From NCBI GenBank assembly GCA_025358925.1, contig JANYHT010000009.1, positions 1 to 37,060 on the forward strand: a stretch of DNA of 37,060 bases, written 5' to 3'. Below are positions 29,846-37,060 of the stretch, in pieces; position 1 is the first letter of the stretch, and every line of letters starts with the position of its first letter. A program made the position numbers and the translations under genes. Origin of the DNA: Gemmatimonadaceae bacterium. Lineage in GTDB: Bacteria > Gemmatimonadota > Gemmatimonadetes > Gemmatimonadales > Gemmatimonadaceae. The notes under the pieces are model-generated. The model was given only the letters and a program-made list of their open reading frames with translations, did not search any database and was not told the DNA's origin.

Positions 29846-30061
29846 TTATGCGGCGATCTCGATATACGTCGCCGCAGTCCCGCCTTCGGGGATGGGCGCA
29901 CCGTCGGCCCGCAGCCCGTCGACGTGAAACGCAATCGCCTCGCGCATCGCTTGCTCGGTCTCAAGTTGCGAGGCGCCAGTCGCGATACAGCCTGGAATAT
30001 CCGGCGAGTACGCGGAATAGCCCATCGACGTCGGCTCGAGAATGATCAGATACCGATGCAT
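29846..30061 (-). CDS. hicB: HicB-family antitoxin
   Basis: 71 residues from ATG 30061, with AGGAG about seven bases upstream. The HicB partial RNase H fold is clear: RYLIILEPTSMGYSAYSPDI, PGCIATGASQLETEQAMREA, then IAFHVDGLRADGAPIP. It lacks a C-terminal DNA-binding extension, as in the short HicB-like group. HicB neutralises HicA, an mRNA interferase normally encoded directly upstream. Here only a 23-codon tail of HicA is left upstream, so the antitoxin seems to have outlived its toxin or to act on a HicA encoded elsewhere. Confidence 0.88.
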   Translation of the reverse strand: MHRYLIILEPTSMGYSAYSPDIPGCIATGASQLETEQAMREAIAFHVDGLRADGAPIPEGGTAATYIEIAA

Positions 30062-32741: not shown

Positions 32742-32855
32742 GCTCGCTAACCGCCGCGTTCTGCTGCAGGGTCTTGCAACAGGATGCACGCAGCGAGCGA
32801 AGCGAGGGAGCGTGCAGTCGTTGAAAGCCCTGCCGGCAACGCGAGGTTAGCGAGC
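32742..32855 (-). repeat. attC site of an integron cassette array (site B)
   Basis: An exact 11-base inverted repeat, GCTCGCTAACC at 32742-32752 and GGTTAGCGAGC at 32845-32855, encloses a long imperfect stem: CGCGTT, GCAGGG and TGCACGC on the left pair with AACGCG, CCCTGC and GCGTGCA on the right, around an 18-base loop with unpaired bases between blocks. On the minus strand the outer boxes are CGCTAAC and GTTAGCG (AAC and GTT cores as in attC). The inner boxes match site A (GCGTTC-N-GCTGCAG; GCAACG-N4-GTTAG). It follows the Ig-like lipoprotein stop by about 90 bases. The R boxes deviate from the strict RYYYAAC/GTTRRRY consensus. Confidence 0.65.
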
Positions 32856-33495: not shown

Positions 33496-35199
33496 TTACG
33501 GAGCGAGCCAAAAGTTGATGGAATTAGACGTCGCACCCGACTCGGTGGCGCTCATCGGCCGCACCTGATACTTGATGTAGCCTTCGGTGGAAAACGTCGG
33601 TGTGCTCGCACCGGTGTACGCGTCGACCGAAAGATTTGGATCGATGAACGTGTTGGAATTGACAATGAACAACTCCCAACCGTTGGATCCCGCGCCGGAC
33701 GCGTAGCGATACCATTGGCGGTACACGCGATATAGGTCGCCCCCGCTACCGACGCCCAGGCCACCGTTGGCACTTGTCCGGCCAGACTTCCAGAAATGAC
33801 AGGAGTCGTCAGCGTCGCGGCACGTCTGGCGTCGAGCCCAGCGCCCAATTCACTAACAATGCTCGAGTATTTAGAGACGACGAGTCCTTGGTACCGAACC
33901 GAGGTGATGCCTGCGAGGGTTACTCTCGAGTCGCCTTCCGTATGGATGTAGAACACCGGCCCACCGCTGTCGCCTAGGTCGGTCAGCGCATCCGCTTTGT
34001 ACGCACACTTTATTGGCGCGGCAGGACCCGGCGCGTTGTTCGAATTCTGGCTGGACACAATATCAAAGCAAGTACTATTGATTGCCCCCCATGTCCATCC
34101 AGTTGTCATGCCGACTTTGTCGACCGCAAGGCCAGCGTAGAGATTGTTTTGTTCGACCGCGTCGACGACCCAGTAGGGATTGAGCTGGTCCCAATCTGTC
34201 GTGGTGGGCAAACCATAGGTGCCGCCCCCGTTCCGCACTTGCGTTCGCGCGAGGAGCCCGACTTCCGCGCTAACGTTGGGAGCCAAGCTGAACAACGCGG
34301 CGTCGCTGTTGCGACACCAAAACCAAGGCAGAAAATATACCGAGCACGAAAATCCGACTGGATCCAGTATTTCGGTACCAATGAGGTTTGAGCCAGTAAA
34401 CGGCTGGAACACGTTCGCGCCGTCCAGGAAGTACTTGATTCCGGTGCAGTGCGAGGCGGTGACAAATCTTGTCGTCCCCGCGAGCTTCGCGAGAAAGCCA
34501 AGCGTGCATCCTCCTGCGTATTGCCCCGAGCTCCAGCCGATCGAGACACCTCCGACAAGCGGCGACGCAACGGAGTTGATGTTCGGTGGCGCCATCTTGG
34601 CGCGTCTAACTCGCATGTCCTCGATTCGTGCAGCTGGTTGAAGTAGGACGGCCTCCGGATCGACCCCCAGTGTTTCAATGGCCCGCCGTGCTGATGCAGG
34701 ATCCCCATCGACATCAAGGCGCACCCGAATGGTGATTTCGTCAACGTCGAGCGCTCGGATGCCCACGAATTTGTTCTCAACCGCATATGCAAAGAGTCGT
34801 TCTCGCCACAACGACAGTTGGCTAAATGTGTACTTGCCGCGCTCCCGTCACGATCACTGGAACCTTTCCTCTTGCGCCGAGCATGCGACCACTGCTGAAC
34901 TGTTCACGAACCGCCGCAATGGCATTTGCCTCTTGAACAGATGATGTAACCCATACATGCAATGTTCCCTTGCTGTCCGCGAAGTATCCGCCGAACCCCG
35001 GTGCCGCAAGCTCAACGTCAGCGAGATAGGCTTCCTCGGCGCGCGATTCGCCAACAGGCGCCGCAGTTACGGCAGCTGCTGCTTCGCGCGGCGCGGCACT
35101 CTCGCTTGGGAATCGGTCGCGGCAGGCGACCACGAAAACCGCCGCTAGAACAGCTACGCCACGCAGTCGTTGCCGTGCTCTTTCAGTCTTCCTATTCAT
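33496..35199 (-). pseudogene. S1 trypsin-like lipoprotein protease with Fn3-like tail, broken by two frameshifts
   Basis: Three frames together spell one protein of about 565 residues. ATG 35199 starts a lipoprotein signal (VAVLAAVFVVACRD) and a pro-region (APGFGGYFADSKGTLHVWV) that stops at 34822. The next frame, 34811 to 33552, continues the pro-region (YTFSQLSLWRERLF) and carries the trypsin fold with His (TASHC), Asp (NSDAALF) and Ser (GDSGGP). The C-terminal Fn3-like domain begins in that frame (TPVISGSLAGQVPTVAW) and ends in a third (YRQWYRYASGAGSNGWELF) at 33496. The shifts lie near 34820 and near 33730 (a CGCG dinucleotide). With intact catalytic residues, sequencing error is as possible as real decay. 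Confidence 0.75.
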
Positions 35200-35640: not shown

Positions 35641-36141
35641 CTAGCGTGCTGGCGGAAGGGGTAGCGTAACGTCATAGCGGAGCGGCGAATCACCCGGCTG
35701 CTGGACCAGCAAATGTACCGTGCGCGGGGGTGTGTTCGGGATTGAATCCACGTACTTCAGCAAGTACGGGCTCTGAAGGCAGTTACCGTTGTCCTGTCGC
35801 CCAATGAACCTGACCCGGAGCGTGTCGGCTTGCAATTGCTCTCGCTCAACTCTGACGAGCAATGCGCACGAGTTGCCGCCGATCACTCCAAAATAGGTCG
35901 CCTTGACCGCACCGTTGGCCTGCGCTGGAGGCGCCACCGCGACGCTATCTACTCGCACCACATACTCGCTGCTCGAGTTGAGTCCACATCCGCCGAGTGT
36001 GGCGCAAAGGCAGACGAGAAGCGCAGTACGGCGCTTCGACTTCTGGCCAGTCGCAGTTGCAATCTGGGCACTAAGCGGTGCGGAGCACCGCGAAGTGACA
36101 CAGCGTACCTCAATGCCTTTGTCTGCAGCAACGCTCGTCAT
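35641..36141 (-). CDS. Small lipoprotein with an unusual N-terminal extension
   Basis: 166 residues. The only start codon in frame is ATG 36141, which overlaps the DUF4926 stop by four bases (ATGA). A 38-residue stretch precedes a normal lipoprotein signal (SKRRTALLVCLCATLGGCG), which is abnormal for a lipoprotein. The mature part is unrecognised: YVVRVDSVAVAPPAQANG, VRVEREQLQADTLRVRF, LVQQPGDSPLRYDVTLP, with two cysteines that may pair. The extension coincides with a degenerate attC-like sequence (36045-36145), so I suspect that the original start was lost and the present frame was created by cassette insertion. Confidence 0.65.
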   Translation of the reverse strand: MTSVAADKGIEVRCVTSRCSAPLSAQIATATGQKSKRRTALLVCLCATLGGCGLNSSSEYVVRVDSVAVAPPAQANGAVKATYFGVIGGNSCALLVRVEREQLQADTLRVRFIGRQDNGNCLQSPYLLKYVDSIPNTPPRTVHLLVQQPGDSPLRYDVTLPLPPAR

Positions 36142-36145
36142 GCCG
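36045..36145 (-). repeat. Degenerate attC-like sequence (site C), weak
   Basis: The right half on the plus strand, GCAGCAACGCTCGTCATGCC (36126-36145), aligns with site A (GCAACG-N4-GTTAGGC) and site B (GCAACG-N4-GTTAGCG), with GTCATGC in place of the GTT box. To its left is a strong hairpin, GCGGTGC-GGA-GCACCGC. A matching left half with an AAC box is not evident. It lies exactly at the end of the DUF4926 gene, where the attC of that cassette would be expected. I regard it as a decayed site. Confidence 0.35.
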
Positions 36146-36380
36146 CACCCTGGCGCCGCGCGGGACGCACTGCGAGGAGGTCGTCATCACGCACGGCGCG
36201 CACGTCGGTGCCGCGCAACGTCAGGAGCGCCTGCGTGCGCCCCGAGGCCGTGACGAATTCGACTTCCACGGCATCCGTCAAATAGAGCTGGACGACGGCG
36301 CCGATATCGCCAGCACACAGACCGACGTCGGGCAGGTCGTGTGTGAGCACGACCGTATCGAGTTCTCGAAAAGCAGTCAT
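36138..36380 (-). CDS. DUF4926 protein, second gene of a coupled cassette pair
   Basis: 80 residues from ATG 36380, whose first bases overlap the DUF6883 stop (ATGA). The fold appears to be a small beta barrel of SH3-like type: LDTVVLTHDLPDVGLCAGDI, GAVVQLYLTDAVEVEFVTAS, then TLRGTDVRAVRDDDLLAVR. DUF4926 proteins are commonly found next to DUF6883 or other small proteins, often in integron cassettes. The function is not known to me. The tight coupling and small size suggest a two-protein unit, possibly toxin-antitoxin or toxin-immunity, but that is only an inference. Confidence 0.85.
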   Translation of the reverse strand: MTAFRELDTVVLTHDLPDVGLCAGDIGAVVQLYLTDAVEVEFVTASGRTQALLTLRGTDVRAVRDDDLLAVRPARRQGAA

Positions 36381-36718
36381 CGCCGGCTTCCTGGGTGCGC
36401 TGTGATGAACCGGGGTACGCTCTCGCCGGTCAGAATGATCCAAACGGTCACGAGGAGCGCCGTCTCGCCGGTGGGACCTTGGATAATACCACGGACCTCA
36501 TACTTCTGTCCAAACACCGACGTAGCGGCCAACTCCGCGTCGCCGTCTCGACCCAGCTGGAGCAGCGCGGACTGGAGAGCCGGCCATTCGGCGCGCGTGA
36601 AACCGAGGGACTCGAAGAATCGCGCCTTCGAACGCCCCACCGGATGTTCGCGCGATAGCAAGTAATCCTGCACTTTCGCCGCGTCGCAAATCGAATAGTC
36701 GGCGTCGGGGAGCTTCAC
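36377..36718 (-). CDS. DUF6883 protein, first gene of a coupled cassette pair
   Basis: 113 residues from GTG 36718, which begins 26 bases after the attC site A, a spacing usual for cassette genes. The domain is recognised from MKLPDADYSICDAAKVQDYL, HPVGRSKARFFESLGF, and the strands FGQKYEVRGIIQGPTGETAL followed by VTVWIILTGESVPRFITAHP. No catalytic motif is known to me for this family; Arg/His/Lys residues in HPVGRSKARFF are conserved-looking. It overlaps the DUF4926 gene by four bases, so the two are translationally coupled. Upstream ATG codons near 36725 are in other frames. Confidence 0.87.
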   Translation of the reverse strand: MKLPDADYSICDAAKVQDYLLSREHPVGRSKARFFESLGFTRAEWPALQSALLQLGRDGDAELAATSVFGQKYEVRGIIQGPTGETALLVTVWIILTGESVPRFITAHPGSRR

Positions 36719-36743: not shown

Positions 36744-36840
36744 GCATAACGCCTAGCGTTCAGCTGCAGCCGAATCAAATAGGAGCGCGCCAAGCGCGCG
36801 CACAATAGCTCGGCTGTCAGACTGCAACGGTTTGTTAGGC
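36744..36840 (-). repeat. attC site of an integron cassette array (site A)
   Basis: Read on the minus strand, the site starts with GCCTAAC (R'' box, exact RYYYAAC) followed by a half CCGTT-G-CAG-T-CTG-A-CAGCCGA, and ends with TCGGCTGCAGCTGAACG and GTTATGC (R' box). The halves pair perfectly apart from three single extra bases in the 5' half, the hallmark of attC extrahelical bases that fix orientation. Between them is a variable loop with the palindrome GCGCGC-TTGG-CGCGC. Length is 97 bases. It begins 13 bases after the stop of the 36853 gene and 26 bases before the DUF6883 start, so it sits exactly at a cassette junction. Confidence 0.82.
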
Positions 36841-36852
36841 ATCACAGAGGCG

Positions 36853-37060
36853 TCACTCAGAGATTCTGACGTTTGATGGCCAGTCTCGAGTTCGCCTACA
36901 GGTGAGTGCGCTCTCGCAGGCCGATTGATAACTGGCCCAATCCTGCGCGCTCATCGCGAGCAAGTCGCCCGTGTTCATTGTCAGGTTGTCAGCGTCAAAT
37001 AGCTTGAACTCAAATGCAACCGACGCTGATTGATCCGCAGGAGACCACAAGCTAATCTGC
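36853..37060 (-). CDS. Partial cassette ORF at the right edge
   Basis: The minus frame is open from the right edge to a TGA at 36853; about 69 codons are visible (SLWSPADQSASVAFEFKLFD, NTGDLLAMSAQDWASYQSA, CESALTCRRTRDWP). A TTG at 37050 could be a start, but nothing supports it and the gene probably begins outside the window. I recognise no family. It ends 13 bases before attC site A, as a cassette gene should. Confidence 0.55.
   Translation of the reverse strand, partial: QISLWSPADQSASVAFEFKLFDADNLTMNTGDLLAMSAQDWASYQSACESALTCRRTRDWPSNVRISE

Follow-up and report, generated by a model that had tools for sequence, protein, structure and literature searches.

In integrons, the bottom strand of a recombination site folds, the integrase binds it, and the strand is cut. 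The attC sites of class 1 and Vibrio integrons have an R''-L''-L'-R' layout, extra bases on one arm, and recombination through the folded bottom strand (PMC3053210). Known attC sites range from 57 to 141 bp and carry two extrahelical bases, both on the same side; the best IntI1 substrates have them as T-N6-G or T-N6-C (PMC3053210). An arrangement with an inverted integrase has been described for Treponema (PMC3607928), the group has been named (PMC10500605), and integrons of Gemmatimonadota have already been listed (PMC8618304). Clusters of attC sites without an integrase (CALINs) are counted from a threshold of two sites (PMC9024848). Here, we describe an attC site near the right end of a Gemmatimonadaceae contig, C64. 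The window, i.e., the whole stretch of DNA that was analysed (37,060 bases), is the entire contig, and the genome assembly to which it belongs (G000) consists of 72 contigs.

The attC site at 36744 to 36840

A first-pass annotation, made by eye on the raw sequence, had called an attC site on the minus strand at 36744 to 36840, with outer boxes GCCTAAC and GTTATGC and paired inner boxes. The coordinates proved exact, and both sets of boxes were found as described. Read along the minus strand, the site runs GCCTAAC-AAAC, the L'' arm, the loop, and then TCGGCTGCAGCTGAACG-CTAGGC-GTTATGC. The R'' box (GCCTAAC) occupies 36834-36840, the L'' arm (CGTT-G-CAG-T-CTG-A-CAGCCGA) 36810-36829, the variable loop 36774-36809, the L' arm (TCGGCTGCAGCTGAACG) 36757-36773, and the R' box (GTTATGC) 36744-36750. 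The outer boxes follow the RYYYAAC and GTTRRRY patterns apart from one base of R', they pair at six of seven positions with one C-T mismatch, and at 97 bp the site lies within the known size range. The L'' and L' arms form 17 pairs, interrupted by three single unpaired bases (36825, 36821, and 36817), exclusively in the L'' arm. The three bulges had thus been read correctly, but had been taken as standard for attC, whereas two are usual (PMC3053210).

As proposed, the site was searched with an attC covariance model, for which we used our own model, R1. It was trained on 19 attC sites that lie close to integron integrases in congeneric genomes, with the genome of the window excluded. In the alignment of these 19 sites, 92.4% of the cells of the common structure were paired and 16 of the 23 pairs had changed on both sides. 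The covariation score was 0.379; shuffles gave 0.136, and sliding the partners gave 0.085 at most. The structure was drawn from the same 19 sequences, which favours its covariation somewhat, yet the gap is large. The R1 structure was therefore backed by covariation. R1 matched 36744-36840 with 67.1 bits (E 8.3e-16) on the minus strand, while the opposite (plus) strand was unreported. The minus-only report and the restriction of the extra bases to the L'' arm set the orientation of the site, which is that of the genes, as the annotation had read from the bulge side. The suggested folding of the bottom strand (the plus strand of the window) gave a predicted −29.1 kcal/mol (z −2.7), compared to −26.5 kcal/mol (z −2.0) for the top strand.

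A palindrome arising by chance, or a terminator between two genes on the same strand, would also fold, and the site does lie between two minus-strand genes. On a home-made score that combined boxes and arms, 1 of 600 dinucleotide-shuffled windows attained the score of 36744-36840, so that the attC shape alone is uncommon by chance, though it does occur. However, the boxes, the placement of the extra bases, and the strand preference all fit a model built from other genomes (E 8e-16), and near copies of the site are found elsewhere with different flanks. For example, it shares 86% identity with the attC next to the G007 integrase, whereas the surrounding sequences are dissimilar. Because of the covariance score, the palindrome or terminator reading was rejected as very improbable, and the homology to attC sites adjoining intI genes refutes it. 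A scan of 30 to 37 kb of the window against Rfam gave no match, and a search of the genome with a strict attC pattern returned a single match (C43), which does not fit. We conclude that 36744-36840 is almost certainly a true attC, belonging to an integron or to its remnant.

Probable cassette genes and worn attC sites in the window

The site had been placed between the stop of one minus-strand gene and the start of the next, and this was borne out. On its right is the end of a minus-strand open reading frame (36853..37060, 68 codons) whose start lies beyond the contig end and whose stop, at 36853, is 12 bases ahead of R''. A search of 58 other genomes from the family revealed no relatives of this frame, and it had no Pfam match. 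The first gene after the attC, starting at 36718, encodes a DUF6883 protein (36377..36718, minus strand; PF21814, 101 bits) and is a probable cassette gene. Its distribution is patchy, with DUF6883 found in 5 of 59 genomes, its own included, and in G083 the homologue directly precedes an attC of the same orientation. The lack of relatives of the upstream frame, the patchiness of DUF6883, and its place before an attC in G083 match the behaviour of cassette genes. A DUF4926 gene (36138..36443, minus strand; PF16277, 67.6 bits) is probably the partner of DUF6883 in one cassette.

Two further traces of attC sites were found in the window, both on the minus strand. A second, weaker and decaying attC lies at 32746..32851 (R1 36.6 bits, E 1.3e-07), and half of a decayed site, comprising the R''/L'' side and the start of the loop, lies at about 36089..36138, with 44 of 50 bases identical to those of an attC in G020. 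The full R1 model missed this half site because its other half is gone. Between the two attC sites, a minus-strand open reading frame of 419 codons (33552-34811) shows a weak trypsin-type similarity that does not reach the Pfam cut-off. Farther left, in the block of minus-strand genes, a HicB-like antitoxin frame (29846-30061, minus strand) has no evident attC. The window thus has one good attC, its nearest neighbour being the weak site 3.9 kb off. The first-pass annotation had claimed a cassette array; with one good site, a weak one, and half a third, this claim is borne out in part. Given the weak site and the half site, the last 4 kb on the right side of the window are either the worn remainder at the end of a cassette array or a cluster of attC sites that has no integrase.

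Integrases elsewhere in the genome and their relation to the site

The annotation had also advised a search for intI to the right of the contig, and an intact integron integrase was found in the same genome on a separate contig, at the right end of C23 (C23:30286-31308; TIGR02249, 425.6 bits with a cut-off of 265). An attI-like GTTAGGC box lies at C23:31377, 68 bases past the integrase stop, and C23 terminates 64 bases beyond it. Two other integrases are decayed: that of C7 (L019:4085-4836) is in two pieces in different frames, and that of C56 (L020:4105-4699) consists of fragments with stops. Each is followed, at its 3' end, by attC sites pointing the same way. An IS transposase gene (L019:1102-2691) in C7 separates the first attC of the broken integrase from the next cassette. 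Genome-wide, R1 found 16 places at E up to 1, 14 of them at E <= 1e-4, and four of these 14 are on the small contig C49. An attC score, an integrase in the genome, and further attC sites, whose absence had been named as grounds for giving up the call, are therefore all present. Of 30 genomes from the genus, 28 contain attC sites, which fits a chromosomal (sedentary) status, a candidate status for C64.

Whether the site is part of the array of the C23 integrase was approached from the contig ends. C64 terminates 220 bases right of the site, and its tips share no words of 18 or more with C23, C49, or C7; joining any of these three contigs to C64 through overlapping tips was rejected, as there were no such overlaps. 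Comparison of the flanks of the window and of C23 with complete relatives revealed no common neighbourhood around their integrons. We give about even weight to the reading that 36744-36840 is part of the array served by the integrase on C23. The possibility that it is instead part of a CALIN, i.e., a small cluster of attC sites remaining, or inserted, away from any integrase, falls slightly short of an even chance. In addition to the lack of overlap between C64 and C23, the worn appearance of the attC sites in the window favours a CALIN, as do the attC sites scattered over C45, C46, C50, C53, and C56 of the same genome and the clusters located hundreds of kilobases from intI in complete relatives, e.g., G028 and G029. 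A CALIN is defined by two or more attC sites with no integrase close by, and the two of the window, separated by 3.9 kb on a contig that is cut, may make one. However, C64 and C23 both end in or beside cassettes, with matching directions, as one split array would, and draft genomes are known to inflate CALIN counts through split arrays (PMC9024848).

In the favoured reading, the site ends an integron cassette with its genes directed leftward along the minus strand, and the right-hand 4 kb would be the old end of an array, its remainder lying beyond the contig end. The plus (bottom) strand of the window is predicted to form a hairpin, and the integrase, possibly the intact IntI of C23, would bind its R and L boxes. 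IntI would then cut between A36749 and C36750 and join the cut strand to attI or to another attC, thereby moving the cassette.

Contig C49 (L169:1-3437) has four attC sites spaced 660-1234 bp apart. Its genes comprise a DUF2442 gene, a membrane protein gene, a MazE/PemK pair, and a PF09720 antitoxin gene with its neighbour, and three of its four cassettes are toxin-antitoxin-like. The ends of C49 are identical over 56 bases, a sequence with no other occurrence in the genome, and closing them gives a circle of 3381 bp with four cassettes, which keeps an open reading frame open up to its attC. In the related G006, three near-identical tandem cassettes of 606 bp (L144:13975-15792; 99.7-100% identical) as well as near-identical 509-bp units were observed, which suggests recent cassette amplification in that species. 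Since such tandem cassettes exist in the genus, C49 could be a tandem repeat assembled as a loop. It is therefore unlikely that C49 is a free, closed circle of four cassettes, excised and abundant enough to assemble beside the chromosomal arrays, including the attC of the window.

Inverted integrases and a third extrahelical base

In all 17 readable related genomes (12 from the same genus, 3 from the family, and 2 from the order, counted by hand, with readable meaning that intI and nearby attC sites were retrieved together on a single stretch), attC sites lay 3' of intI and on its strand. The broken integrases of C7 and C56 showed the same inverted arrangement, while the contig of the window has no intI. 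Among named loci, this layout recurred in Gemmatimonadota, Acidobacteria, Rokubacteria, Krumholzibacteriota, and others, whereas proteobacterial loci mostly had the usual divergent layout. The layout of the lineage, with the integrase directed toward attI and the array, is the known inverted-integrase arrangement, and an integrase would therefore be predicted to the right of the site, on the minus strand. Integrons of the Treponema denticola type share the inverted integrase but belong to another phylum, and on the window's own contig intI is absent.

The integrons of the same genus (G004, G006, G007, G008, G012, G016, G017, G020, G021, G025, G028, and G029) have the same boxes as 36744-36840, as well as the CGTTGC...GCAG...AACG arms, the side of the extra bases, and the direction relative to intI. 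The R''-L''-L'-R' layout and the one-arm extra bases are also common to the class 1 and Vibrio sites. The difference lies in the third extra base: sites of the genus mostly have two, and class 1 and Vibrio sites typically have two in the form T-N6-G, whereas the bottom strand here reads T-N3-A-N3-C. The extra middle base is also present in the attC of G007, at C7:2846-2940, and, in a different form, at C56:30086-30181, and it is a lineage variant found in a few relatives. Given this base and the off-consensus base in R', the activity of the site may be altered.

The site at 36744-36840 confirms an attC call made by eye and is a solid, if unexceptional, example of a familiar type of system. It adds a clear case, with the integrase pointing toward the array, for a little-studied lineage, in a single genome that holds one intact and two decayed integrases. 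The attC subfamily with a third base could serve to examine how much alteration of the extrahelical bases an integrase will accept.
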